From a virus: a DNA stretch of 26,264 bases. Below the pieces are notes generated by a model. It saw only the letters and a program-made list of their open reading frames with translations. It was not told the origin of the DNA and did not search any database. Both the position numbers and the translations under genes were made by a program. Positions 2,749 through 26,264 of this stretch are shown here, piece after piece (position 1 is the stretch's first letter; each line of letters begins with the position of its first letter). The stretch covers positions 1 to 26,264 of IMG/VR virus record IMGVR_UViG_3300020471_000020; one strand, written 5' to 3'.

Positions 2749-5181
2749 TTATTTTGTTAAGTAATTACTGTCTGCAAAAATATCTGGTTTATTTTTAACA
2801 TCATCATTTTCAATATATTCTATTGGGTTATCTAAAAATTTTCTTATGTCGTCTTTATTTTGAACAACTCTAAATAAAAATCCTGGGTCAAATATTTGTT
2901 CTTGTATTATCTGAGCATCTGTTGGTTTAATTTTCAAAATTTTAGATTTGTCTAATCTACTATTCATATCTAAAAAATTTGCAGGACTCCTCCCATACCA
3001 ATAAGATGCACCTCCAGGAAAAACATTATAAGGGGTACGGACATTAATATCTGTAAAACCCATATCATTTAGTGTTGAAACAAGTTGTCTGGCTCTATCA
3101 TAAAATAAAACTTTTAGTTCTTTTTGAACTTCAGCTGCACTTGTATCATCTTGATTAGCTTTGTTAGAAATAGCTGTAACTTCGTCATCTAAAACAATTT
3201 GTGATGGTTGGTTTGCATTAAAACTTGTAACAGCATTGTTTTCTTTTAAATCTAAGACTTTATCTTTAAGCGTATTAAGTTTGTCATATAATTCTTGACC
3301 CAGTGCATTTGCTTCTGTCTGATTCCAGACGTCTGGCTGTCCGTCTATTACCCATATATTTGCATTTTTCCCTGCTGAATTAATTGCATTACTAACTTCT
3401 GATTTAGTAGCATCTATCATGTTAGTAATTGCATTAAGTTTAGATAAAGTAAGATTATCTATTTGACCAGAATTTATTGCACTTTCCATTTCTGAAATAT
3501 TAGATTGTATTTTATCAAATCCATAATCAAATGATTGGTTAAATGTACCTTTCCAACTTGAAAATGTTTGCCTATCAGGAAGGTTTTGAGTAGCCATATC
3601 TGTAAGCTGTTTTTTTCTTTCACCCCAATTAGTCATGTTTGTACCTAGTACACTCTTAAAATATGACTCAAGCTCTCGGACACTTCCACCCTCTTTAGGT
3701 ACATACTCCTTAATTGCTGCAGCTAATATATCTAAATGTGAGTTGGTCAAATAAAAATTTTCAGCAATTCTATTTATTGCCTCAACCATGTTGCCACCAG
3801 CAAGTTTACCATCTTTCATTGTTGTGTTTATATAATTGCCACCTTCAAAAATTGTTTTTACTTTGTCTTTGCTTGCTTTTTTCTCAGCTTCTATCTGTGG
3901 TTGAATATTACCTAAATTCTTATCTCTAAATTGAGCAAAAGCGTCTTGTTGTAAGTCATCTATTGCTTGTGTTTGCTGAGTTATAAAAGCCGTAATTTCT
4001 GCCATTATCTTGTCTCTGTTGGCTTTACCAGAACCTACTCCAAAATTTCTATCAAAGTAATCATCATCAAATTTTGTTATTAATACTTCATTAGCCAACG
4101 CTATTAATCCAGCAGGACCTTTATTTTTAAAAGAAAGTAAAGCAGTTTTATTTAATTCGCCACTTGGAGTAAAAATACGACCCAAAAGTTCGTTGCTTAT
4201 GTCATTAATTGTTTTTCTGTCAAAGTCATCTTTTTCTCTTCTTTTCTTTTCCCATGTAGCAAGAAGATTACTGTAATTAGCATTCACTAATATATTTATA
4301 GTTGCATTGTCTATAGGTAGTTTTCTTTTTGCGGCTTCAGTTGTTATAAAATTTGTTACTTCGTCTTTTATTTGTTGTGCTGTTTTTGTTCCAGATAACC
4401 AATCTTCTTCGTAGGTTTGCATTTGGCTTTTTATTATTTCTGATTGCCTATTTAAAAATTCATCACCTTCTATAACCATATCTTTATTAAAATCAGCTTT
4501 AACTTGTTCAAATACCTCTGCAATTTTCCATTTTGGAATTTTGGTCTGCGCTTGTATTTTAAGAACTTCTTGGTCGGTTAATTTAAACTCCTCGCCTTTG
4601 TCTCTTTTTGATTCTAAAAAACCACGTGATAAAACCTTAACCTCTGGAACATTCTTAGTAAATATGTCTTGTCTTATTGAATTTGCATTATCTATTGAAA
4701 AGACGCCAGCAATAGTATCTTTCATGTCCATATCTAAATCTGTTCCTAGATTGTCACTAAGAGTTTTCATATATTGGGCTTCAAGTTTTTCTAATAAATT
4801 CTTTTGAAGTTCCTTTGGACCACCTAAAAATTCTTGATTTTGCATTTCATTTGTTAAAAATGCTTGTGCCTGTTCACGTAATTTTTGTCTAATTTCATTT
4901 TTTTCATTAAAAATATTAAATTGATTTTTAAGTTCTTTATCTTTTTTTGCTTCTAAATTTGATGTTGCAATGCCTTCTAATACGGAAGTACTAGGAAGAC
5001 CTGCTCTTAAATAATTCCTGCCACCACTTAATGCGTTTATCTGGTCTTGCATGTCTTCTAGCGTAGCGTAAGGGTTGTCTTTCCTAAACTGTGCAAAAGT
5101 ATCTGCTATGTCTTTTCTTGTTGCTCTGTCGTCTTTTCTTTGTTGACGAAAACCACTTGCTATTGCGCTAAAATCTACCAT
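2749..5181 (-). CDS. Putative internal virion protein, 810 residues
   Basis: I do not recognise a named family. The product is 810 residues, mostly charged and predicted helical, with no signal peptide, no obvious membrane segment and no cysteine. The N-terminus (about 1-60) has Arg/Lys/Asp-rich helices. The middle (about 90-450) is Gln/Glu/Lys-rich with coiled-coil character. The C-terminal 150 residues are more mixed, with several aromatic residues around a GGASYWYG stretch. It starts 5 nt after the stop of the 498-residue gene and is followed 29 nt later by the giant virion gene. Size, composition and position match T7-like internal core or ejection proteins (gp15/gp16 role), but this is inference from context. 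Reading frame and gene reality are certain; function is moderate. Confidence 0.72.
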   Translation of the reverse strand: MVDFSAIASGFRQQRKDDRATRKDIADTFAQFRKDNPYATLEDMQDQINALSGGRNYLRAGLPSTSVLEGIATSNLEAKKDKELKNQFNIFNEKNEIRQKLREQAQAFLTNEMQNQEFLGGPKELQKNLLEKLEAQYMKTLSDNLGTDLDMDMKDTIAGVFSIDNANSIRQDIFTKNVPEVKVLSRGFLESKRDKGEEFKLTDQEVLKIQAQTKIPKWKIAEVFEQVKADFNKDMVIEGDEFLNRQSEIIKSQMQTYEEDWLSGTKTAQQIKDEVTNFITTEAAKRKLPIDNATINILVNANYSNLLATWEKKRREKDDFDRKTINDISNELLGRIFTPSGELNKTALLSFKNKGPAGLIALANEVLITKFDDDYFDRNFGVGSGKANRDKIMAEITAFITQQTQAIDDLQQDAFAQFRDKNLGNIQPQIEAEKKASKDKVKTIFEGGNYINTTMKDGKLAGGNMVEAINRIAENFYLTNSHLDILAAAIKEYVPKEGGSVRELESYFKSVLGTNMTNWGERKKQLTDMATQNLPDRQTFSSWKGTFNQSFDYGFDKIQSNISEMESAINSGQIDNLTLSKLNAITNMIDATKSEVSNAINSAGKNANIWVIDGQPDVWNQTEANALGQELYDKLNTLKDKVLDLKENNAVTSFNANQPSQIVLDDEVTAISNKANQDDTSAAEVQKELKVLFYDRARQLVSTLNDMGFTDINVRTPYNVFPGGASYWYGRSPANFLDMNSRLDKSKILKIKPTDAQIIQEQIFDPGFLFRVVQNKDDIRKFLDNPIEYIENDDVKNKPDIFADSNYLTK

Positions 5182-13139: not shown

Positions 13140-14330
13140 TTAGGCTGTGCCTGCCCAGTTCTTAACATAAGCATGAACTTTATCTTGTAAGAGTTCTAAT
13201 CCACACTCAGTTAAATATTCACTCTTTTGTGAATCGGCATCTACTGCTTGTCGATTCTCTAAGAGTTGGGTATCACGACCTTCTAGGTAACGATAAACAA
13301 GATATGGGAAATCAACAATAACCATTGCAGTTTTCATATGAGCTAACTGACGGAACTGTGGGTGTAAGTGTACCATCAAGTCACCTGCGAAAGTGCTGTA
13401 TTGTGTTAGGTTGATGCCATAGCTACCTTCTATCGCTGTTGGTTGCCAACGTGCTTTACCTATTTTTTGTAGTAGAGCTGCACATGTTTCACCGACAAAA
13501 GCTATCTTTTGCTTTGAACCATACTTAAATACAGTAGAAATCAAAAGCTTATCTAAGCCTTCTTCAGTCATATTGTTTGCAGAACTACCACCATAAGTGC
13601 TGCTACTTGTTGCCAAGTCTACCACGTTAGTTAGTGAGTTAGTTAAACCACCAGTATATCTAGTTGGACTTGCAGTTGAACCACTTGCTTCGTGCTTGTT
13701 GCCGAAGAACATAGCTCTTTCGATGTCAGACATATGTAATTTTAATGCCTTAGTCATTGCTTCGTCCATCTTATCACCAGTTCTTAGATAGGTGCTTGCT
13801 AAAGTATTAGATACTTGGAAAGCAGTTCTAAAAATCTGAGTGAAGTTGTTGGTTACTGTAGCATCAAATGTGATTGCTGTTGGTGATGTTGCACCTTCAG
13901 CTGCGGCATATCCTGCCACAAACAGTACAGCATTATCTGCAATTTGATGTGAAGTACCACCAATGTTACGAGTAACAGCAAGAGTTGTAGCTGTTGTGTC
14001 AGCAGTTGCCTGCATAACTTCACCAGTAGTTTGGTTAATAATGATTGCACCTTTAATTGCAAACTTATTGTCGTCTGCTGCATCTATTGTTATTGATGCT
14101 GTAGACGTTGAGTTTACTGCTCCATTAACAGTCATAGTTCTGTCAGGCAACTCGTCTCTGAAGTTCTTGTATTCAGGGTCGTCTGTTGGCTCTGATGAAC
14201 CCATTGCTAACATAGCGTTTAATGGTGCGTTACCATTTGGTTCTAAGAGAGTAAATAACTCTCTGTAGTTTTTAGGACGGAAGTCCGAACTGAACTCACC
14301 TGTCCCTCTCATGCCTTGAATAGGGGCCAT
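13140..14330 (-). CDS. Major capsid protein, HK97 fold, SU10/DUF5309-like, 396 residues
   Basis: The 396 residues follow the scaffold gene. The N-terminus (GTGEFSSDFRPKNYRELFTL) and the line around NAPLNAMLAMGSSEPTDDPEYKN resemble the DUF5309 (SU10-type) capsid family. A beta insertion (about 68-150) with ITIDAADDNKFAIKGAIIIN and a GEVMQATADT strand corresponds to the family's extra domain. Then come a long helix (KMDEAMTKALKLHMSDIERA), a KQKIAFVGETCAALLQKIG segment, and a strand pair with AMVIVDFPYLVYRYLEGRDT near the C-terminus. A strong ribosome site precedes it, with terminators on both sides, so it is probably expressed as its own high-level transcript. Confident from motifs and position. 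Confidence 0.88.
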   Translation of the reverse strand: MAPIQGMRGTGEFSSDFRPKNYRELFTLLEPNGNAPLNAMLAMGSSEPTDDPEYKNFRDELPDRTMTVNGAVNSTSTASITIDAADDNKFAIKGAIIINQTTGEVMQATADTTATTLAVTRNIGGTSHQIADNAVLFVAGYAAAEGATSPTAITFDATVTNNFTQIFRTAFQVSNTLASTYLRTGDKMDEAMTKALKLHMSDIERAMFFGNKHEASGSTASPTRYTGGLTNSLTNVVDLATSSSTYGGSSANNMTEEGLDKLLISTVFKYGSKQKIAFVGETCAALLQKIGKARWQPTAIEGSYGINLTQYSTFAGDLMVHLHPQFRQLAHMKTAMVIVDFPYLVYRYLEGRDTQLLENRQAVDADSQKSEYLTECGLELLQDKVHAYVKNWAGTA

Positions 14331-16087: not shown

Positions 16088-16291
16088 CTAAGTTAAAACG
16101 ATTGAAATTACAAGTCCAAGAATAGATAAAGTTGTAACAGCCTGCATGCCTTCTAGTCGCCACATACGTTTATCAAGGCTATCAAGTTTATCTTGAACGG
16201 CTTGGTATCTAACAGCACACTCACGTTCATGTGCTTCCAGATTCATTTGAACAGCCATCTCTGGCTTTATTGTTGTTTTAAGTCTTGGCAT
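16088..16291 (-). CDS. Coiled coil plus C-terminal membrane helix protein, holin/XhlA-like candidate, 67 residues
   Basis: Residues about 10-47 are a charged helix with heptad character (LEAHERECAVRYQAVQDKL, then LDKRMWRLEG). Residues about 50-66 form one hydrophobic segment (AVTTLSILGLVISIVL) ending the protein. This coiled-coil plus terminal membrane helix layout matches XhlA/hemolysin-like holin accessory proteins. One membrane helix alone is also compatible with a spanin-like or virion membrane anchor. The start overlaps the previous stop as TAATG. No endolysin is present in this window to confirm a lysis role. Confidence 0.55.
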   Translation of the reverse strand: MPRLKTTIKPEMAVQMNLEAHERECAVRYQAVQDKLDSLDKRMWRLEGMQAVTTLSILGLVISIVLT

Positions 16292-16518
16292 TATAGTTTA
16301 TCCATCTCTGTTTTTATTTGCGACCATGTAACACCAAACTTGCTTGGGTCATTACTTGTTGTAGCATTGTTGTCATCATCTACACTTACAACTTTATGAA
16401 ACCTAGCTAAAAATTCTTTTTCGGTTTCTGGGTTATTGCCATGTATTGTCCAACCACTTATTTTAAGATTTTTCATAGCTTGTGAAAACTTACTTATTTC
16501 TGGTTTAGGTTCTGACAT
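16291..16518 (-). CDS. Small conserved-type phage protein, 75 residues
   Basis: Soluble 75-residue protein with LKISGWTIHGNNPETEKEF, VVSVDDDNNATTSNDP and FGVTWSQIKTEMDKL. From memory, the combination GWTIHGNP, VVGVDD and FGVTWSQV recurs in small proteins next to fibre genes of marine phages, without known function. The ribosome site AGGAGA is well spaced. It overlaps both neighbours by 1 nt (TAATG at each end), tying it to the last fibre gene and the holin-like gene. Confidence 0.7.
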   Translation of the reverse strand: MSEPKPEISKFSQAMKNLKISGWTIHGNNPETEKEFLARFHKVVSVDDDNNATTSNDPSKFGVTWSQIKTEMDKL

Positions 16519-17093
16519 TATTTTATCTCCTGTACTGTAAGACTTGTAATGGTTGTTGCTGAATATCCAGCATTAGCATCATTATATTGATAGTTTACAG
16601 TTATATCGTATGATGATGAATCATGTAATGATGAACCTTTAATTTTGTAAGTTGTAGCTGAAGTTGTGCCTGGGTGGTCTAATAATACAATCGTTGCTTG
16701 AGTGCCGTCCCATTGTTTATACCAATGGTGAGCTGCACTTCTTTGTCTAGTTTGGTTAGTATCTCCAATGCCAACTACTGTACTGCTTGAATTTGTTACA
16801 TCAGTTTCACTTTGTCCAGATACAGTTCTTGTAACTTTAAAATCCCAATGCCCATTTCCACCACTTGTTACATAAGCCATAATTAAAATTTTGCTCGATG
16901 ATGCTGATGGAGTAATAGCTTGTGATAAAATATCTACATAAGATGTGCTTTCTATTAACTGTTTGTCTGTTTTATTTGCTTGTAGTGTTTGTAATACAGA
17001 ACCTGTTGGAAGAGCAGACGTTATTGAGCCTAGCTGAGTTGGAGTTATAGTATTATCTGCAATACTTGATGCTGTTATTTTTGATAGTGCCAT
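16518..17093 (-). CDS. Small tail fibre / adhesin, 191 residues
   Basis: The N-terminal 25 residues (MALSKITASSIADNTITPTQ) share the LSKI-x-x-x-x-IAD-x-x-[IV]T anchor with the 378-residue fibre. The rest is a beta domain with GSVLQTLQANKTD, STSYVDILSQAITPSASSSK, ILIMAYVTSGGNG, VVGIGDTNQTRQRS, DHPGTTSATTYKIKGS and a terminal ITSLTVQEIK. This order of elements is one I know from many marine phage fibres, where the middle is variable and the frame conserved. CpG is low along the gene. It is probably an oligomeric tip protein. Receptor unknown. Confidence 0.78.
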   Translation of the reverse strand: MALSKITASSIADNTITPTQLGSITSALPTGSVLQTLQANKTDKQLIESTSYVDILSQAITPSASSSKILIMAYVTSGGNGHWDFKVTRTVSGQSETDVTNSSSTVVGIGDTNQTRQRSAAHHWYKQWDGTQATIVLLDHPGTTSATTYKIKGSSLHDSSSYDITVNYQYNDANAGYSATTITSLTVQEIK

Positions 17094-17105
17094 ATTGTTT
17101 CCTAA

Positions 17106-17732
17106 CTATGAGTAGTTACTCCCTTTAATTCCGTATAAAGCTACTTTCCCTACTGCTTTTATATTACCACCTACAAAACCTACTCTTATATTATTAATTG
17201 CAGTAGTTACTGCTATAGACGAACCACCTCTCCATGCGTATTCATCAACACTATGTTTACCACAAGTTTGGAATAACATATATTTGTAATGTGATGTATT
17301 TCTTAAACCAAATAAATGACATTCCATAGTTACACCTCTATTAGAGTCATTCCCAGTATCTGTTGCTACTTGAATATAATTATTAGTGCCAGCTTCTGGT
17401 CCTTGTGCTTGATTTGCGGCTAATCTTAGATAACTTCTTGCATGACCAGAAGTGGCATAATTAGAACCATTATCACTAGAACATTGAATAATTAATTCGT
17501 CATCATCAACTGTAGAAGTTAAATGTTTGCCTTCTATAATATAATCATCGTATGTATTTGTTATATGTGTATTATCAAAAGATACATTCGCTGTATCAAC
17601 ACCTAAAGAAAAACTGTGTATTAATATTCTTACACCATTTGGCATATGAGTAGCATTTAATGTAGGGATTTTAGCAGTAGGAACTGTTGTGCCACCCTGT
17701 AATAAGTCTGCTAGATTTCTTGCTCTGCTCAT
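17106..17732 (-). CDS. Small tail fibre / adhesin, 208 residues
   Basis: It begins MSRARNLADLLQGGTTVPTA, an anchor type seen at the start of many phage fibre proteins and distinct from the other anchors here. A beta-rich domain follows: NTYDDYIIEGKHLTSTVDDD, ELIIQCSSDNGSNY, YLRLAANQ, a Cys-containing GVTMECHLFGLRN strand, and the closing strand KAVGKVALYGIKGS. The YDDY start and YGIKGS end bracket a domain I recall as a recurring fibre tip fold in phages. It starts 3 nt after the chaperone-like gene. Low CpG, as in its neighbours. Confidence 0.75.
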   Translation of the reverse strand: MSRARNLADLLQGGTTVPTAKIPTLNATHMPNGVRILIHSFSLGVDTANVSFDNTHITNTYDDYIIEGKHLTSTVDDDELIIQCSSDNGSNYATSGHARSYLRLAANQAQGPEAGTNNYIQVATDTGNDSNRGVTMECHLFGLRNTSHYKYMLFQTCGKHSVDEYAWRGGSSIAVTTAINNIRVGFVGGNIKAVGKVALYGIKGSNYS

Positions 17733-17735
17733 GTT

Positions 17736-18065
17736 TTATTCCTTTGGATTATCATCTTTAATTTTTTTTATTCTTTTTTTCCAAGCATCTATATCTTTAT
17801 AAATTTCATCTAATTGCTCACCTATATCACCATAGGCTGTTTTTCTAATTCGTCTTACGTCATTATTCGCTTCTTCTGTTTTGGCTTTTGTTTCGTAGGA
17901 TTTTAATTGTTTATCAGTAGGTTTATCTAATCCATCTACATTCCATGAATAAATATAATCTCCATTTCCATCATTCTGTAAATGTATATTACCTTGTTCA
18001 GCTTCCCAAGTTTTTGAGTTTGCTTCTAAATATAATTTTACTTTTGTATATAGTTGTACTGCCAT
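17736..18065 (-). CDS. Tail fibre assembly / XkdW-like chaperone candidate, 109 residues
   Basis: The N-terminal half (about 1-55) is a small beta region (VKLYLEANSKTWEAEQGNIH and YIYSWNVDGLDKPTD). The C-terminal half is a charged helix, RRIRKTAYGDIGEQLDEIYK, followed by W-x-x-x-I-x-x-I-K and a PKE end. The Y-x-x-I-x-x-QLD-x-x-Y signature followed by W-x-x-I-x-x-IK-x-x-x-P matches what I know of XkdW-like and fibre-assembly helper proteins. It sits between two fibre genes with 3-nt gaps, the expected place for a dedicated chaperone. Whether it serves one fibre or the whole cassette cannot be told. Confidence 0.65.
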   Translation of the reverse strand: MAVQLYTKVKLYLEANSKTWEAEQGNIHLQNDGNGDYIYSWNVDGLDKPTDKQLKSYETKAKTEEANNDVRRIRKTAYGDIGEQLDEIYKDIDAWKKRIKKIKDDNPKE

Positions 18066-18068
18066 AAA

Positions 18069-19415
18069 TTACCCTATTAAAAACCCTTGCCAATTTTGAC
18101 TGCTTGAATTTGAACCACTAAATACATTAGCATTTGTCAAACTTTCTGAATAACCACTTCCTTGAAATACATGAAGTTCTATTTTGTCATTTGCAGCTAA
18201 AGTCATTATAGTTGTTGCTGTTAAAGTATGTGTTATATTAATTTCAGTTGATTGATGATATGGGTGTTTAAAAATATTCATACTTCCACCAGTAGATTGT
18301 TTTTTCCAAACTATCCCTATTCCAGCACCAGCAACCATAGTTGATAATGTTACAGTACAAGTCATTAAATAAGTGCCAGCTACTGGTGCTGTAAATTGGT
18401 CTGTGCTTATATCAAAATCATCATTATGGTCATGTACTTTTGTATCCCAAAGAGTTGTTTTTGTTAAAGTACTATTAGATATAGCTTGGGTTGTACTTGA
18501 TGTAACTTCGAATAAAGGTTGTAGTGGTGTAGTTATAAAACCATCTTTATGAAAAGTTGCTATAAATTTATTATCAGTTTGATTGTATATATCCCAATTA
18601 GTATGACCAGATGCAGAGCCTGCTCTCCACATTACACCACCACTATTTGCAGTGTTATCATAACGTATATAAGGTCCATTTCCAGCTTCGGCTTCTATTC
18701 TTCCAAAACCTTTGACATGAAAATCATCTTGTGGACTATTTGTATTAACACCTACTCTATTGTTTCCTGCATCTATTTTTAATACACCTGAGTCAAACGA
18801 TACGTCTCCAAATATGCCACCACTAAAATAAGCATTACCACTAAATGTAGTTTGACCACTAAAAACTGTAGTTCCAGAAACTGTGCCTCCAGACGATTTG
18901 TCTAATCCATTAGAAACAAGCACAGACTTGTAAGCAATAATTATTATTTCGTCTGACGCACTAGCGTTTGTTACTAAGACGACAGACGTGCCGTTAGACG
19001 CAGTAAAGTCTGACTCATCAAGACGTACACCATTCATAAAAACGTCTATGTTACCTGCTGTATAACTAAGTTCTAATCCATTTGCGTCATTGTTTTGAAA
19101 TGTATCCTGACCACCTGTTGCAACAAACTTAAATCTGTTTATGTTTGTATATGTTGTTGGCACGTCTACTGACCTGCCAAGATAACGAATGACGATTGTG
19201 TCTCCGTTTGGTACGTTCTCTGTAAATGTTATTGTAGTGCCTACTGCTGAATATGCAGTTGTAGGTTCTTGGACTACGTTACCTACTGTTACAATTATAC
19301 TGTCGCTGTCTGGTACAAATTGATTAAGTGTAAATGTGGCTGTAGAGCCATTAGCTGTTGTTATTGTTTGGCTTTCTACTGCTCCAAAATTTGGTGATGA
19401 CCCTATATATGGCAT
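18069..19415 (-). CDS. Tail fibre with two N-terminal beta repeats and C-terminal C1q-like domain, 448 residues
   Basis: The start MPYIGSSP is shared with the 403-residue fibre (MPFIGAQP). Two beta-sandwich repeats (about 12-80 and 95-164) carry FTLNQFVPDSDSIIVTVGN and NIDVFMNGVRLDESDF. A spacer around 175-210 has triplet-like Ser/Gly/Phe repeats, and a DAGNNRVGVNTNSPQDDFHV stretch common in fibres follows. Residues about 299-448 look like a C1q/TNF-type jelly roll: FTAPVAGTYLMTCTV, IVWKKQS, TLAANDKIELHVFQG, and a terminal WQGFLIG matching the C1q F-x-G-F-L ending. CpG falls sharply after about residue 200. The start overlaps the previous gene by TAATG. Confidence 0.82.
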   Translation of the reverse strand: MPYIGSSPNFGAVESQTITTANGSTATFTLNQFVPDSDSIIVTVGNVVQEPTTAYSAVGTTITFTENVPNGDTIVIRYLGRSVDVPTTYTNINRFKFVATGGQDTFQNNDANGLELSYTAGNIDVFMNGVRLDESDFTASNGTSVVLVTNASASDEIIIIAYKSVLVSNGLDKSSGGTVSGTTVFSGQTTFSGNAYFSGGIFGDVSFDSGVLKIDAGNNRVGVNTNSPQDDFHVKGFGRIEAEAGNGPYIRYDNTANSGGVMWRAGSASGHTNWDIYNQTDNKFIATFHKDGFITTPLQPLFEVTSSTTQAISNSTLTKTTLWDTKVHDHNDDFDISTDQFTAPVAGTYLMTCTVTLSTMVAGAGIGIVWKKQSTGGSMNIFKHPYHQSTEINITHTLTATTIMTLAANDKIELHVFQGSGYSESLTNANVFSGSNSSSQNWQGFLIG

Positions 19416-19618
19416 TAGTCTGCTTCCTCTATTGTTAATTCACCTGCATCAACTTGTCGTTTTATTTCAGCATAAAATCTATTATCTTCGTCTAGTGGTA
19501 CAAGCCATACAACACCATCTATTGTTGCTTTAATACAAACATTTGTTTTATTATCTTGTCCTTTGCCATATTTAGCTGATGTTATATTATATTGGTCAGT
19601 CCTATGGAAATTCTGCAT
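19415..19618 (-). CDS. Small accessory protein between fibre genes, 67 residues
   Basis: Begins MQNFHRTDQYNITSAKYGKG and has a short beta pair (NVCIKATIDGVVWLVPLDED) followed by a helix, NRFYAEIKRQVDAGELTIEE. The VPLD-x-x-NR-x-YAEI-x-RQV pattern is one I recall in small proteins and domains next to marine phage fibre genes, possibly assembly helpers. It overlaps the end of the 378-residue fibre by 17 nt and the start of the next fibre by 1 nt, so translation of the three is coupled. Function unknown. Confidence 0.7.
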   Translation of the reverse strand: MQNFHRTDQYNITSAKYGKGQDNKTNVCIKATIDGVVWLVPLDEDNRFYAEIKRQVDAGELTIEEAD

Positions 19619-20738
19619 CTACTTGCCCTCTTACATTTAATCCTCTTCTTGCAGCATTTCCATTATTCGTCATTCTAATAAACGATAAACATACTGCGTT
19701 AGTGTCATAAGAAATGTATCCTCCAAGCCCATCTACAGTACCATTTTCTACTGGTGTACCTGAATAAGCTGGCGTTGCTCTCATTGGTACTGGAAAATTA
19801 ACCGAACCTATAAAATCATTTGCATTACCATCTGGCGCCATTAAATTACCCATAAAATTATTTGTTGTATTTGGTTTATAAAAATATCTAAAACATCTTC
19901 TATGGTTTTCATCTGGTGTTTCGTGCTTGTAAGGTGTAGCTGATTGACCTACCTCTAATTGGCAACCAGTAACATCAAAAGTTCTACCATTTGTACTACC
20001 CCAATTTTGCAAAAAATCTATTGTATAATCTTGACCAGCAACTGCATACCAACTTGATGTATTAGCATTACTACCAGTAAAACTTGGTCCATAGTAAGGT
20101 ACTATATAAACAATCATACCAGGACCGGTATTATTATCAATTACTAAACTCGAATCTCCATTAAATGTAAGAGAAACTTTTGTCCAAGTGTTTGCTTGTA
20201 AAACAAAAGTTTGTGTTCGAATTTTATTAGGTGACATATCAGTTGTAAAAAGAAAAGAATGATAAGTTCCTGCTAAACTAGACCTAGCCCAAAAACTATA
20301 AGTTAAATAACTAGAAGATGATTTATAATTCCAACCACTTCTCAATATATTTCTTGCCTCTATTTGTTGAGTAAGTTGTGCATATGAAGCATCATTTGTA
20401 GACGAAGATGTAACTTCGGCTCTTGTAAACTGAGAAAATCCATGTTGATATGGAGCATCAGATGTTGCAGTACTTTGTTGAGATTGTGTAATAGCAACTT
20501 GAGAACCATGCCATGACCATCTATCAACAGTCTGTATTCCATTTGAAGTTGAGCTACTCGCTCTCTGTGCCACAACCATATCACCATTAATTAAAATATT
20601 TTCCGTATTTAAACTTGTAGAAGGAACAAAATCACCACTTACTGTTAAATTACCTGCAATGGTTGGATTGTTTTCTATTTTAGCACCAGTTACAGCATCG
20701 TCTGCAATTTGATTTGTACTTATTTTTGATAGTGGCAT
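19602..20738 (-). CDS. Tail fibre with carbohydrate-binding-like domain, 378 residues
   Basis: The anchor MPLSKISTNQIADDAVTGAK is followed by a triplet-like spacer (NPTIAGNLTVSGDFV). A long beta domain (about 46-265) begins ENILINGDMVVAQRA, continues TVDRWSWHGSQ, YLTYSFWARSS, TQTFVLQANTWTKVSLTFNG, and closes VTGCQLEVGQSATPYKHETP. This order is typical of jelly-roll, carbohydrate-binding-module-like domains in phage tail proteins. The following ENHRRCFRYFYKP and the NFPVPMRATPAYSG strand form a second C-terminal subdomain often attached to them. It probably binds a surface glycan. CpG is low over the whole gene. Confidence 0.82.
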   Translation of the reverse strand: MPLSKISTNQIADDAVTGAKIENNPTIAGNLTVSGDFVPSTSLNTENILINGDMVVAQRASSSTSNGIQTVDRWSWHGSQVAITQSQQSTATSDAPYQHGFSQFTRAEVTSSSTNDASYAQLTQQIEARNILRSGWNYKSSSSYLTYSFWARSSLAGTYHSFLFTTDMSPNKIRTQTFVLQANTWTKVSLTFNGDSSLVIDNNTGPGMIVYIVPYYGPSFTGSNANTSSWYAVAGQDYTIDFLQNWGSTNGRTFDVTGCQLEVGQSATPYKHETPDENHRRCFRYFYKPNTTNNFMGNLMAPDGNANDFIGSVNFPVPMRATPAYSGTPVENGTVDGLGGYISYDTNAVCLSFIRMTNNGNAARRGLNVRGQVDAEFP

Positions 20739-20752
20739 TATTTATTCCTCCA

Positions 20753-21964
20753 TTATGCTTTCTCCAATGCTTCTATTCTTTTTATTAAATCTGCAATAAT
20801 ATTATCTTTAACTGTTGAGCCATCATCTATATGTTTTGATACTTCACCATCTTCATTAACATCAAGTGTGCCTTTATAAATTAATTTTTCGCCAGTAAGT
20901 TTTTCAACTTGTCTAATTACTTTTGTCATATCAGCACTAATAAATGTTCCAGATTTAATTTTTTCTTTAATTTTATTACCTTCTTCATCTTTTTCTATAA
21001 CTTCTCTTTCAAATTTATCTGATTTATAACACCATGCACCAGTTTCACTTGCACCATCTGGAATATAATCAAAGTTATGAGGAGATAATTGTGTTGAATT
21101 GTTACTACTATCTATTGCAAAAACATCTCCTTGTTCTGCTCTTAAAACAAAATGATTGCCACCACCATTAGCAGAGGAATTAACACCAGCTTCCATAAAC
21201 CCATGTCTTGTACCACTTCTAAACATCATAAATTGTGGTGTACCACTGCCAGAAGATGTATTTGCTTTCATCTCAAAAGTACAACTTGTATCATGTCTGC
21301 TAACTAAAGCACCAAGTGTTGTTGTTTGTAAAACAGTATTATTGTCGTACTTTGCAAAGAAAGCACCATTCTTATCTGCACCAAACAAACCTTCAGTATT
21401 GTCTGCACTTGTAAATCTAACAACATCAGTAAATATTTGCATAGAATTTGCTGTGCTTAACATACAAGCAACACTGTTGCCACCACCACCATTATGAAAA
21501 ATTTTAAATGCACCATTACCTAATTGTAATGTGTCATCAGTTCCAGCAAAATCATTAGCACTTCCAATTTTTACATTTTGAGAACTATCTATAGTTACAG
21601 CATTAGCATTAGCATTATCATCAATACCAGTTGAAGTAAAATTAGATATTGTTCCTGATAATGCTCCACCAGTTTTTCTAAGTGCGCCTGTGTCTATGCC
21701 TGTCTGCTGTGCAAGATTACGATAGACTACGTAGAAGTCTCCAGATGGTGGAGCTTCGCTAAAGCGAAGCGTAACGCCATCACTTAATATTGTGTATGAT
21801 GTTGTTGGTTGTTGTTGTACGTTTGAAACAAATACTTCAATGTCTTCTGGATTAGATACATGTTTGTTTAATGTAAAATCTACAATATTTCCGTTAGCAT
21901 TTGTAAATACTTGTGATGTTGCTTTAGCAAACGTTGTTGCTGGTTGTGCGCCTATAAATGGCAT
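20753..21964 (-). CDS. Mosaic tail fibre / tailspike-like protein, 403 residues
   Basis: Residues 1-90 are one MPFIG-type beta adaptor (FTLNKHVSNPEDIEVFVSNV, PPSGDFYVVYRNLAQQ). The distal part has KTGGALSGTISNFTSTGID, LQLGNGAFKIFHNGGGGNS and beta-rich turns to about 300. The C-terminal region has TQLSPHNFDYIPDGASE, WCYKSDKFEREV, MTKVIRQVEKLTGEKLIY and a final helix IIADLIKRIEALEKA. The last part resembles C-terminal ends of fibres that trimerise through a coiled coil, but the S74 self-cleaving chaperone motif is not recognised. CpG is nearly absent after residue 95. The start overlaps the previous gene by TAATG. Confidence 0.78.
   Translation of the reverse strand: MPFIGAQPATTFAKATSQVFTNANGNIVDFTLNKHVSNPEDIEVFVSNVQQQPTTSYTILSDGVTLRFSEAPPSGDFYVVYRNLAQQTGIDTGALRKTGGALSGTISNFTSTGIDDNANANAVTIDSSQNVKIGSANDFAGTDDTLQLGNGAFKIFHNGGGGNSVACMLSTANSMQIFTDVVRFTSADNTEGLFGADKNGAFFAKYDNNTVLQTTTLGALVSRHDTSCTFEMKANTSSGSGTPQFMMFRSGTRHGFMEAGVNSSANGGGNHFVLRAEQGDVFAIDSSNNSTQLSPHNFDYIPDGASETGAWCYKSDKFEREVIEKDEEGNKIKEKIKSGTFISADMTKVIRQVEKLTGEKLIYKGTLDVNEDGEVSKHIDDGSTVKDNIIADLIKRIEALEKA
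21753..21770 (-). repeat. Perfect 8-bp inverted repeat inside fibre gene
   Basis: GCTTCGCT and AGCGAAGC separated by 2 nt. It lies in the adaptor-coding part of the 403-residue fibre, about 75 nt upstream (in coordinates, to the right) of the CpG junction near 21680. Not followed by a T run, so not a typical terminator. Confidence 0.6.
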
Positions 21965-22323
21965 TAGGTCATCTCCATTATACTAAGTGCTATATCTGCT
22001 GCGCCAGACGCTTGAAGTGTTATGCTGTCTGTGTCTTCCAATACAATCTTGTTACCACCTAAAAATTCCTGTGTGCCTCCGACAGGTACAGGTCCGTCTT
22101 TTACAAGGAAGACGTCTGTGTTTGCTCCATTGGCAGTAGTTCCTGTTGGTACTCTGCTTTGAGTGTTGGATATAAGTTTTACCTGTATAGTTATTCCAGA
22201 AGTCGTTGTGTTGCAAACCATCAAGCCAAGGACTACAGTTGCGTCTACTGAATTACCTGCTTCGTATATCGTCAAAACACCTGTCACTCCTGCTTTTGTT
22301 ACTGTTTTAAATGTGTTTGGCAT
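21964..22323 (-). CDS. Small beta-rich virion-type protein, 119 residues
   Basis: A 119-residue beta-rich protein (VTKAGVTGVLTIYEAGNSVD, VVLGLMVCNTTTSGITIQV, VFLVKDGPVPVGGTQEFLGG, KIVLEDTDSITLQASGAADI). From memory, this arrangement is common as a small protein beside marine phage fibres and may be a fibre-base or decoration protein. It starts 3 nt after the large 913-residue fibre and overlaps the next fibre by TAATG. CpG content is like the native structural genes, not the distal fibre segments. No catalytic motif. Confidence 0.7.
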   Translation of the reverse strand: MPNTFKTVTKAGVTGVLTIYEAGNSVDATVVLGLMVCNTTTSGITIQVKLISNTQSRVPTGTTANGANTDVFLVKDGPVPVGGTQEFLGGNKIVLEDTDSITLQASGAADIALSIMEMT

Positions 22324-22326
22324 AAA

Positions 22327-25068
22327 TCACCCCAATGCTATTGCTAACGCTGTTACGTCATCTACTGTTGATATAGTTTTACCCTCTACTGCTAGTACTC
22401 CAGCACTTGCTCTTGTTAATGTTGTATCTGAATTTTGAACATTAATGCTACCAGTTGTGTCTATAGTTGTAACTGCTAAAGAGTCACCACTAATTACTCC
22501 TGTTGCAGTTACTGTAACTGCATTTAATGTACCACTGGTTTTAATATTACCAGTTACATCTAATGGAACAGTTGGACTTGTATTAAGTATTCCAACATTA
22601 CCATTCTGGTATATTGTAACTGCTTCAAGAGATGCTTCACCACTTTGTTGATTGTCAGTAAAAATAGAAAGTGAATTAGCATTTCCAGTACGGCTTCCCA
22701 TATATTTAACATTGAAACCAAAGGTAGTTGCATCATTGCCTGTACGAATTAAGCTAACATCATTGTTTGAAGAATTGCCAAAATCTAATTCTCCAGTAAC
22801 TTCTAATTTTCCAGTAACTTTTACTCCATCAGAAGTAGTATTAAATCTTGTACTAGCACTTCTTTGAATGTATGTTTCAACACCATTAATAATTAAACTT
22901 CCAGTACCATTTTCTGATATATAAGTATGACCAGTATTGCCATTGTGAAAAATTTCTAAATCATTGCCAGCACCAAAGACTAATTTAGAATTGTCACCAA
23001 ACTCTAATGAATTGTCTGATTTATCCCATGTTAAGTCATAGCTACTTATAGTACCAGCAAAAGTTACATCACCAGTAAATGTGCCACCTGCTAATGGCAT
23101 CTTTGTTGCTAATGAGTTTGTCATTGTGGTTGAGAAGTTTGCGTCATCACCCAGAGCTGCGGCTAGTTCGTTAAGAGTGTCGAGTGTGCCAGGTGCTGAG
23201 TCAACAAGGTCTGCTAGTTCTGACTGCACGTATGCTGTTGTTGCTATTTGTGTTGTGTTTGTATTAGCTGCGGCAGTTGTTGCTGTTGGTGTTCCTGTTA
23301 ATGCAGGTGATGCTAATGGTGCTTTGTCGTTTAATGCTGTCTGTAAACCATCAACATTTGATATTACATGATTGTGACTGTCGTCTGCTACTGTGACTGA
23401 AATTGATGTAGTCCCAGAACCACTGACATCTCCAGTTAATTGAATTGTTTCATTCCCACTTAACTTTGTGTCTGCATAGGCTTTAATAGCCTTTGCAGAC
23501 GCTAGTGTGTCGTCACTTGAAGATACGCTTGATAAGTCGGTGTCGAGTACTCCAGTTTTTAAATCTGCTACATCAATGTTTGAGATTGAGTTGCCAGTAC
23601 CTTCGACATCGAAGGTTTTGTTGGTGAGTGTTTCTGTTTTACTCGCTGTAGATTTTGCATCTAATGTTGTTTGTAAATTATCTATATTAGATATTACATG
23701 GTTGTGACTATCGTCTGTTACTGTAGTTGTAAAAGTTACATCACCAAGATTTGTTAATGTGCCACCACCAGTTACGTCTCCCTGTAATGTTATTGTCGGT
23801 GATTTAGTTACGTTTACAAACTTTGAACTGGCATTGTTGTATTGAATAAACTGATTGTTGGCTATAGAACTTATAGTTACGTCTGATAAACTATCAAGGT
23901 CGCCTATTGCATTTGCTGTGTTCTGTGCGGCTGTTGCACTGTTGGCTGCTTCTGTAGCGTAATGCAATGCAGAATATAATCCAGACGTACCACCATTTGT
24001 AGATGTTAGTGTGAATGCAGTGTTATGTGCTGTATTTGCGTATTTGGCTGCATCGTCTTTATGGTCAGACGCTGTATTTTTGTAGTTGTTCGCTGTATTA
24101 GCATGACCTGCTGCTGAGACATTCATTGCTAATGCTTGTTCTGAATAGTATTTAGCTGAGAAACTAGAACCTGATACAGATGTTGTCGATGTAAAAGACG
24201 AACCACCACCTAATGCCCATGCCTTTGCAGAACCAGATGATAATGTTGTTGTTGGTGCAGTTGCGTGGTTTGATGCTGTATCTTTGTGACCTGACGCTGA
24301 TGATGCTGAGTTAGATGCTTCTGTTGCGTAGTGTAGGGCAGAGTAAAGACCAGATGTTCCACCATTCGTTGATGTTAAACTGAATGTTGTGTTGTGTGCA
24401 GTTAATGCGTATTTGGCTGCGTCTGCACGTTGGTCACTTGCCAGACCTGCCTGAGTGGTTGCTGTTGTTGCATTGGCACTTGCTTTTGCATTATAATGCA
24501 GTGCTGAGAAAAGACCTGATGTACTACCATTAGTACTGGTTAGGGAGAACGAGGTGTCTTCTGCTGTGATTGCGTACTTGGCTGCGTCTGCTCTGTGGTC
24601 GCTTGCGATTGCGGCTTGGGCTTGCGCTCCTGATACATCGACAATCTTCTTCGTGTTTGACGAACTGATGAATGCAGATTCCGAGCCGAAGGTTGAAGCT
24701 GATGAAAGACCATGTACTAAGTATACGTCACTATTGGCTACAGTTACAAGGTCAAAGTTGTTGTAAGATGTTGATGTGCTGAACGCTCCTTCTACACTGA
24801 AAAAACTTGTTACATCTACGAAGCTTGCACTTGAGTTTGAGAATACGCCTGCTCTAAATTGTAGGTTGCTTGTTGTTGCGTTGTATCTAAACTCAAAATT
24901 TTCTGAACGGAATGTACCACTGTTAGCAGGGTCAAATAAGTCATCGAGTAAGTCTGATAATGTACGACCACCTATTTCGGCTGCTTCCATATAGGTGTCG
25001 AGGACGTGTTCGCCTGTGTTAGCAGAAAGAAATCGAAGTTGTTCGCCAGTAGGTCTTGTCTCTGCCAT
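22327..25068 (-). CDS. Large tail fibre, 913 residues, with adaptor, repeats and acquired-looking distal part
   Basis: Residues 1-90 match the adaptor of the 520-residue fibre. Residues about 140-390 are an Ala/Ser/Thr/His-rich shaft with three diverged units of about 40 residues starting near 158, 213 and 336 (DAAKY, then LTSTNGGTSGLYSALHYATE). Residues 420-585 contain two copies of a DDSHNHVISN unit (452, 562). Near 583-615, APLASPALTGTPTATTAAAN and TTQIATTAYVQ are typical of phage fibres. The distal third (about 660-895) has LVFGAGNDLEIFHNGN, HTYISENGTGSLIING and NVGILNTSPTVPLDVTGNI, fibre motifs known from marine phages. CpG drops abruptly near residue 660. The start overlaps the upstream stop (TAATG). 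Confidence 0.87.
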   Translation of the reverse strand: MAETRPTGEQLRFLSANTGEHVLDTYMEAAEIGGRTLSDLLDDLFDPANSGTFRSENFEFRYNATTSNLQFRAGVFSNSSASFVDVTSFFSVEGAFSTSTSYNNFDLVTVANSDVYLVHGLSSASTFGSESAFISSSNTKKIVDVSGAQAQAAIASDHRADAAKYAITAEDTSFSLTSTNGSTSGLFSALHYNAKASANATTATTQAGLASDQRADAAKYALTAHNTTFSLTSTNGGTSGLYSALHYATEASNSASSASGHKDTASNHATAPTTTLSSGSAKAWALGGGSSFTSTTSVSGSSFSAKYYSEQALAMNVSAAGHANTANNYKNTASDHKDDAAKYANTAHNTAFTLTSTNGGTSGLYSALHYATEAANSATAAQNTANAIGDLDSLSDVTISSIANNQFIQYNNASSKFVNVTKSPTITLQGDVTGGGTLTNLGDVTFTTTVTDDSHNHVISNIDNLQTTLDAKSTASKTETLTNKTFDVEGTGNSISNIDVADLKTGVLDTDLSSVSSSDDTLASAKAIKAYADTKLSGNETIQLTGDVSGSGTTSISVTVADDSHNHVISNVDGLQTALNDKAPLASPALTGTPTATTAAANTNTTQIATTAYVQSELADLVDSAPGTLDTLNELAAALGDDANFSTTMTNSLATKMPLAGGTFTGDVTFAGTISSYDLTWDKSDNSLEFGDNSKLVFGAGNDLEIFHNGNTGHTYISENGTGSLIINGVETYIQRSASTRFNTTSDGVKVTGKLEVTGELDFGNSSNNDVSLIRTGNDATTFGFNVKYMGSRTGNANSLSIFTDNQQSGEASLEAVTIYQNGNVGILNTSPTVPLDVTGNIKTSGTLNAVTVTATGVISGDSLAVTTIDTTGSINVQNSDTTLTRASAGVLAVEGKTISTVDDVTALAIALG
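23929..24597 (-). repeat. Three diverged repeats in the fibre shaft
   Basis: Units at about 24468-24597, 24304-24432 and 23929-24063 encode residues with DAAKY, a Thr/Ser strand, NG-S/G-TSGL and SALHY. The second and third are nearly identical in their central SGLYSALHYATEA part while the first is diverged. They likely extend the shaft of the 913-residue fibre. Confidence 0.75.
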
Positions 25069-25469: not shown

Positions 25470-26264
25470 GTTGATTACCTCTCATTGGAACAAGGTTGCC
25501 ACGCTCTACTTCTCTGCTTACGTCTTCGCCAGGTTTGACAGATGCACCACGCATCTTTTCCATAATTTGCATTTGCTGTGATGGTGTCGGACCTTGTTTT
25601 CGAAGTTGCTCTTGGTTTACTCTGAACCTGTCGAGGTCTGTTATACCCATTGCACGTATGGCTTCTTCTGCAATTTGTCCTGCATTGTATTCCATTGTTA
25701 AGCCTGTCTGGTTCATTATCTGTAGCATGTTCATCCAGGTTTCTGCGTTGCGTGTGGGTTCAAGGGGAAGAGTCCCATCTATTACTAGATAGTCAATGTC
25801 CCCTTGAAGGTCTTTAGATACATCGAAGTCCATGTATCCATCTTCTACCATGCCTTCTAATTGTGACGGCATGTTTTCTTTTTCAAGCTTGACAGAACCA
25901 GAAAGTGCGAGAGCGTCTTGTATATTGGCTACCATCATACGAACCATAGGACGCATTGTTGTTGCTGACATCACACGTGCCAGTACACCAAGACGTTGTG
26001 AGCCGAGTTGTGTCAGACGCTGTATCTCTGTTGCTGTTCTTACGTCTGGTGTCGGTACGCCTTGTTGTGCATCAGATGCGGCTGACACACGTTGTTTGAG
26101 TTCTGCCATTGCACTTATATCGCTGAAGTGTCCACGTGTTACGTCTGGAACTTGCGCTATGAATACGCCATCGCCTGGCTTAGAGCCTGGCAGAGTTCGG
26201 ACGACACCCCAAGGATTTCTGTCCACAAGGTCTGGTACAGACACTTGTGTAGGGTCAACGAATA
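25462..26264 (-). CDS. Portal protein, C-terminal part, 5' end outside window
   Basis: The frame is open to the right edge: upstream of a GTG at 26244 it continues as FVDPTQ, so the gene is truncated by the window rather than starting there. Visible features are LVDRNPWGVVRTLPGSKPGD, a VTRGHFSDISAMAELKQRV helix, the segment PDVRTATEIQRLTQLGSQRL followed by a long helix with MRPMVRMMVANIQDAL, and a C-terminal helical part ending in a Met/Gln/Lys-rich tail. The R-T-A-T-E-[IV]-x-x-L, then G-x-R-L pattern is typical of the stem/crown helices of podovirus portals. It lies upstream of head and tail genes as expected. Terminase should lie beyond the right edge. Confidence 0.78.
   Translation of the reverse strand, partial: FVDPTQVSVPDLVDRNPWGVVRTLPGSKPGDGVFIAQVPDVTRGHFSDISAMAELKQRVSAASDAQQGVPTPDVRTATEIQRLTQLGSQRLGVLARVMSATTMRPMVRMMVANIQDALALSGSVKLEKENMPSQLEGMVEDGYMDFDVSKDLQGDIDYLVIDGTLPLEPTRNAETWMNMLQIMNQTGLTMEYNAGQIAEEAIRAMGITDLDRFRVNQEQLRKQGPTPSQQMQIMEKMRGASVKPGEDVSREVERGNLVPMRGNQRG

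Follow-up and report, generated by a model that had tools for sequence, protein, structure and literature searches.

The 403-aa gene of an uncultured virus contig very probably encodes a tail fibre of modular build, from a marine podophage of the CRP-810 type that combines native T7-gp17-like adaptors with exchangeable tips from CpG-poor phages. We analysed the whole virus record IMGVR_UViG_3300020471_000020 (26,264 bases; from here on, the window) and compared it with five near relatives from IMG/VR (loci L003-L007), giving six genomes with the window. The fibre genes are referred to as slots A (913-aa fibre), B (403-aa fibre), C (378-aa fibre), and D (448-aa fibre), and the features of this region are as follows.

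23131-25068, minus strand: native anchor of the 913-aa fibre (codons 1-646), from 94-96% DNA identity to relatives over most of it and from change-points.
22372-23130, minus strand: CpG-depleted tip of the 913-aa fibre, from CpG deficit and homology breaks.
21964-22323, minus strand: 119-aa gene between the 913-aa and 403-aa fibres, of native composition (CpG) and conserved in relatives.
21665-21964, minus strand: native, T7-gp17-like adaptor of the 403-aa fibre (residues 1-100), from homology, fold match, and backbone-like codon usage.
21665-21690, minus strand: composition step and recombination joint (codons 93-100 of the 403-aa fibre), from CpG, codon model, and DNA homology.
20753-21664, minus strand: exchangeable, CpG-depleted foreign tip of the 403-aa fibre (residues 101-403), from CpG, homology loss, and codon usage.
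20707-20747, minus strand: downstream homology patch (90-97% identity), the start of the next fibre gene after the 403-aa fibre.
19602-20738, minus strand: 378-aa fibre-like protein (phrog_4492, tail fiber), nearly all exchangeable, with only the first ~41 codons common to relatives.
18732-19415, minus strand: native anchor of the 448-aa fibre (residues 1-228), from homology, CpG, and similarity to the 403-aa adaptor.
18069-18731, minus strand: tip of the 448-aa fibre, CpG-depleted and bearing a C1q-like head, from CpG, the end of homology, and a Pfam C1q match (residues 309-434).
17736-18065, minus strand: 109-aa small gene of the XkdW/phrog_9114 type after the 448-aa tip, from Pfam/PHROG match; absent at that place in relatives.
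16518-17732, minus strand: two more fibre-like genes (208 and 191 aa), mildly CpG-poor, with patchy homology to relatives.

An earlier reading of the sequence alone had counted about 11 CpG dinucleotides in the adaptor part of the 403-aa fibre and about 2 in its distal part, and the exact counts are indeed 11 in 21681-21964 and 2 in 20753-21680, which correspond to observed/expected ratios of 1.05 and 0.09, respectively. That reading had allowed that amino-acid composition might explain the step, which was not the case: when the protein was held fixed and synonymous codons were drawn at window usage, the 310 distal codons were expected to contain 25.0 ± 4.2 CpG, and none of the 5000 draws gave a count as low as 2. 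Likewise, shuffling synonymous codons within the gene reproduced the step in 0 of 3000 trials. The best CpG change-point lies at codon 93 (support 82-112) and that of the codon model at codon 95, matching the break proposed near residue 95. When the whole record was scanned with 341 sliding windows of eighty codons, the three most CpG-depleted all fell inside the 403-aa tip. With the codon usage of the non-fibre genes of the window as the reference for observed/expected CpG, residues 101-403 contain 2 CpG compared with 25.3 expected. Over both references, the adaptor contains 11 compared with 6.6-7.7 expected; it is near the backbone CpG level, not clearly CpG-rich, and the depletion belongs to the tip. 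A hairpin (GCTTCGC TTTA GCGAAGC) that holds 4 of the 11 adaptor CpG was dropped as the cause of a CpG-rich adaptor, being conserved only in near relatives and one of 22 such inverted repeats in the window. Further, the compositional change is broader than CpG alone: between adaptor and tip, third codon positions go from 17% to 5% C and from 29% to 52% T, and TpG is raised in the distal part (1.48 vs 0.96).

Comparison with the five relatives supports the proposal that a foreign tip was joined to a native anchor. The adaptor is 95-97% identical in all five, the tips are 24-34% identical (a value from forced global alignment, near the level of unrelated sequence), and DNA homology ends at the joint. 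The two halves have different histories rather than a shared one, the adaptor being kept in the relatives and the tip not. A search of IMG/VR with residues 1-94 returned 38 loci, five of them at 96-98%, and a search with residues 101-403 returned only two matches, both partial. Four of the five relatives lose homology to the 403-aa fibre at 21665 (residue 100), the fifth does so at 21562, and identity to all five returns after the tip at 20743-20774, which is the start of the next fibre. The 448-aa fibre loses homology at 18732/18733 in all four relatives that cover the region and regains it at 17732-17736; in the 913-aa fibre, the break lies at 23052-23072 or earlier, and matching sequence reappears at 22363-22371, shortly ahead of the stop codon. 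The DNA flanking the fibres in L003-L007 is mostly 89-99% identical to the window, and downstream of the tip swap identity is back to 98-99% in three of the five relatives. We conclude that the step is a recombination joint and that the region is a row of fibre slots with repeatedly swapped tips, rather than the site of one foreign acquisition. Neither a diversity-generating retroelement nor an invertible fibre switch fits: the variation consists of whole-tip replacement, not scattered substitutions, and the PHROG matches of the window, which is a fragment, include neither a reverse transcriptase with a template repeat nor inverted fibre copies with a recombinase.

The identity of the gene is indicated by its N-terminal part. 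The 403-aa protein matches "tail fiber protein" in PHROGs over residues 1-134 and no Pfam family, the adaptor included, and the first 93 residues of the 448-aa fibre are 43% identical to its adaptor. An AlphaFold2 model of the adaptor from 20 sequences is of moderate confidence (pLDDT 74.5), and Foldseek matched it to 8vbx, 8es4, 8i4m, and 7boz (E 2e-4 to 9e-3, TM ~0.5-0.6), structural matches that are the fibre/nozzle adaptors of PhiM1, HRP29, cyanophage P-SCSP1u, and T7 gp17. A profile search gave the cyanophage fibre 8i4m (7e-8) and the K1 depolymerase 9k4a (2e-11). By sequence profile and by fold, the N-terminal adaptor is thus homologous to the solved adaptors of podophage fibres, as in fibres of the T7 gp17 type. 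From the modelled fold, the adaptor presumably docks the fibre onto the tail; by analogy, the tips would bind receptors and set host range.

The same compositional contrast is seen across slots A, B, C, and D in the six genomes, where observed/expected CpG is 0.99-1.44 in anchors (that of slot C being too short to test) and 0.08-0.67 in tips. Within the window, codons 661-900 of the 913-aa fibre contain 2 CpG compared with 19.4 expected, the 448-aa tip 3 compared with 13.0, and the 378-aa tip 14 compared with 24.6; the 119-aa gene contains 9 compared with 7.7. The change-points fall close to the joints: 93/95 for a joint at 100 in the 403-aa fibre, codon 218 or 251 (CpG and codon methods) for a joint at 228 in the 448-aa fibre, and codons 642 (CpG) and 646 (codon model) for a joint at ~666-672 in the 913-aa fibre. 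Among the relatives, step positions in slots B and D are mostly consistent, but the slot-B step of L003 is not significant and the slot-A change-points lie elsewhere. At the opposite extreme to the tips is the C-terminal part of the portal gene (25825-26244), which is CpG-enriched (34 vs 18.7 expected), with CGN at 14 of its 20 Arg codons.

We scored each segment under codon-context tables of several marine phages, with the sibling G006 standing for the phage's own backbone. All 17 anchors scored best under their own backbone codon usage, and 22 of 23 tips, which are not independent samples since some are common to relatives, scored better under another marine phage, 16 of these under contig G001. 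The G001 table gains +630 nats in total over the tips, and beats the own backbone by 45 nats for the 403-aa tip; for the slot-A tips of L003, L005, and L007, it is no better than the own backbone. G001 carries a siphophage-type portal, terminase, and tape measure, is CpG-poor throughout, and has a similar fibre array. A pure AT bias without a CpG effect was rejected, as G001 and a second siphophage contig, G002, have nearly equal GC3 but differ in CpG (0.27 and 0.70, respectively), and the tips prefer the CpG-poor G001. Because the gain under G002 is only 382 nats at near-equal GC3, CpG carries signal beyond AT-richness. We note, as a counterpoint to the swap reading, that some non-fibre sequence is CpG-poor too: the second half (from about codon 413) of an 810-aa non-fibre gene (2749-5181) is CpG-poor and G001-like (+16 nats), the sole such non-fibre gene in the window.

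The tips are most economically explained as coming from a pool of CpG-poor donors that resemble SAR11 phages. Among named phages, the distal half of the 403-aa protein matches Pelagibacter phages only, mostly via a motif of ~30 residues, and the two Pelagibacter phages sampled have CpG ratios of 0.32 and 0.49. A stretch of the 403-aa tip matches another phage, L041, at 83% DNA identity, with the adjoining 119-aa gene only 65% identical and no adaptor match seen there. The tip matches found are partial, none being a donor that carries the whole 403-aa tip, and a search of bacterial genome contigs with the whole 403-aa protein gave no relative. An independent case is provided by G002 (contig IMGVR_UViG_3300030102_005174; loci L048 and L090), a different siphophage with a fibre array at 46687-54764. 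Six forward-strand genes of this array prefer the G001 codon table, a 105-aa small gene among them does not (-5.3), and every G002 gene outside the array prefers the table of G002 itself. Because the array alone has the G001 codon usage and CpG poverty, and one array protein is 98% identical to that of G001 when common backbone proteins are 28-85% identical, we conclude that a whole fibre array was transferred to G002 from a CpG-poor lineage. Separately, a protein of ~134 aa is 66-73% identical in podophage G006 (19718-20122) and siphophages G002 (13483-13911) and G001 (24437-24850), and a few other non-fibre proteins are similarly common to the three; because of these shared proteins, there is a hint that their hosts overlap.

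Three other explanations of the step are each less likely than tip exchange. The first, which we consider unlikely, is that selection or mutation acts on the tips themselves, such that CpG or C-ending codons are avoided, for example to escape restriction that recognises CpG or through cytosine deamination as tips move between hosts, and the depletion would reflect the tips rather than a donor lineage. Every tip tested in the six genomes is depleted whatever its sequence, as this would predict, and the raised distal TpG points the same way; CpG at codon junctions of the tips is also below the level given by their own codon usage (88 vs 155, z -7.5), but junction CpG is avoided in anchors too (z -5.1), and third-position C drops regardless of whether the next base is A, C, T, or G. 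Moreover, other adaptor-bearing fibres often have tips at 0.96-1.2, with several such cases leading us to discard a general CpG deficit of fibre tips, and in G001, a phage that is CpG-poor as a whole, this composition is that of the ordinary genes. The second, a constraint on coding or expression by which less codon-optimised tips rich in Gly, Ser, Thr, and Asn would carry fewer CpG without foreign origin, is very improbable. The amino-acid make-up of the tips does differ and backbone genes vary in third-position C and CpG; however, our tests keep the amino acids fixed, the tips are replaced among relatives, an expression difference is excluded because anchor and tip form a single reading frame, and a 5' ramp is excluded because the codon position of the step varies from fibre to fibre (~95, ~220-250, and ~645). 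An assembly chimera, in which the adaptor of one phage was joined to the tip of another, is exceedingly improbable: the contig is uncultured and conserved adaptors are typical places of misassembly, but the joints are in frame in three of its fibres, and five other contigs have the same architecture with different tips, with 98-99% identity downstream in three.

Returning to tip exchange, the tips of the relatives are themselves mosaic. The first ~114 tip residues are common to L004, L005, and L006 at 91-92%, with L005 diverging afterwards; the end of the L004 slot-B tip recurs in slot D of L005 (77%), and most of the L005 slot-B tip is present in G002 (78%), which has a siphophage backbone. 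As judged from these shared sequences, tips have evidently moved between slots, and between podophage and siphophage backbones. A family search with the slot-B fibres of the relatives gave only a sub-threshold C1q match. Tip and small partner gene appear to travel together, because ~104-aa genes (phrog_6228) come after slot B in four of the relatives and, in L005, after slot D; in the window, the 109-aa small gene probably moves together with the 448-aa tip. Small genes outside the ORF list, of 75, 67, and 61 aa and without a family match, also lie after fibre tips (window 16291-16518 and 19415-19618; L004 5890-6075). The small partner genes seem to change slot too, because that after the last fibre of the window resembles one after slot C of L004.

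Homology and composition show that the adaptor was inherited with the backbone; we propose that the last ~300 residues were acquired by recombination from a CpG-poor, AT-rich phage pool like contig G001 and the SAR11 phages. Exchange would likely take place during co-infection and be homologous or homology-assisted, as the shared breakpoints suggest; with conserved adaptor DNA upstream of each tip and the conserved start of the next fibre downstream, a tip could be replaced in frame as a cassette, sometimes together with its small partner gene. Because the tips still lack the codon usage of the recipient, the composition step marks the joint. We infer that tip replacement is faster than codon-usage adjustment. 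More tentatively, and at slightly less than even odds, the tips could be a gene pool of their own that circulates among podophages and siphophages, with CpG-poor (SAR11-type) phages as its main reservoir and a turnover in CRP-810-type phages that outpaces codon adjustment. If true, a codon/CpG step inside a gene would, without any alignment, reveal a recent receptor-binding swap and its donor in any uncultured phage. Such swaps are usually recognised only with close relatives at hand; here, the step by itself located the joint to within a few codons for the 403-aa fibre and to within ~25 codons for two other fibres, after which the relatives confirmed it, and it points to a donor pool. Single contigs from uncultured phages could be screened simply in this way for recent swaps and for lineages that may have donated the tips.

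The nearest known backbone is that of Roseobacter phage CRP-810, the founder of a marine phage family with predicted hosts among Roseobacter, Sphingomonadaceae, and SAR11 (PMC11288001). The major capsid proteins are 81% identical, blastn matches cover capsid, stabilisation, and tail genes, and the order terminase, portal, small gene, large fibre, 119-aa gene is found in CRP-810 and in G006, the near relative of the window; homologous core virion genes in the same order, as judged from pairwise matches and gene order, place the window in the CRP-810-type family. It differs in composition (GC 37-39% and CpG 0.57-0.64 here, compared with 53% and 1.21 in CRP-810), and no comparable row of fibres is annotated in CRP-810. 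Like T7 gp17-type fibres, those described here have an N-terminal beta adaptor of matching fold and an unrelated distal part; unlike them, the adaptor has no Pfam match and there are several fibres per genome rather than one. In Alteromonas phages A5 and V22, a fibre and a small chaperone gene are common to distantly related, morphologically distinct phages (PMC10579305). There, the whole module is shared and the small gene is a chaperone, whereas here it is mostly the tip alone, with or without the small gene, that changes while the adaptor stays, and any chaperone role of the ~104-aa genes would be hypothetical. A close parallel is with metaviromic islands, where fibre and C1q genes vary between marine phages that are otherwise near-identical (Mizuno, Ghai, and Rodriguez-Valera 2014, PMC3909814); T7-like fibres there keep the N terminus and have unrelated C termini, C1q heads are hypervariable, and XkdW and fibre-assembly genes are present too (PMC3909814). 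The window and its relatives are likewise near-identical genomes with abrupt homology loss confined to host-recognition genes or their distal parts, and share the conserved fibre N terminus and the swapped C terminus, so that the present case belongs to this kind. In contrast to the islands of that paper, the text of which contains neither "GC content" nor "recombination" (PMC3909814), the window has a row of fibres, each split at reproducible joints that coincide with a codon/CpG step. In a limited literature search, we found no paper that used a CpG or codon-usage step within phage fibres to locate a joint or donor. Overall, we conclude that tip swapping itself was already known and that this is an unusually clear example of it; the novelty lies in a codon/CpG step within a gene, located at the joint and indicative of a donor pool.
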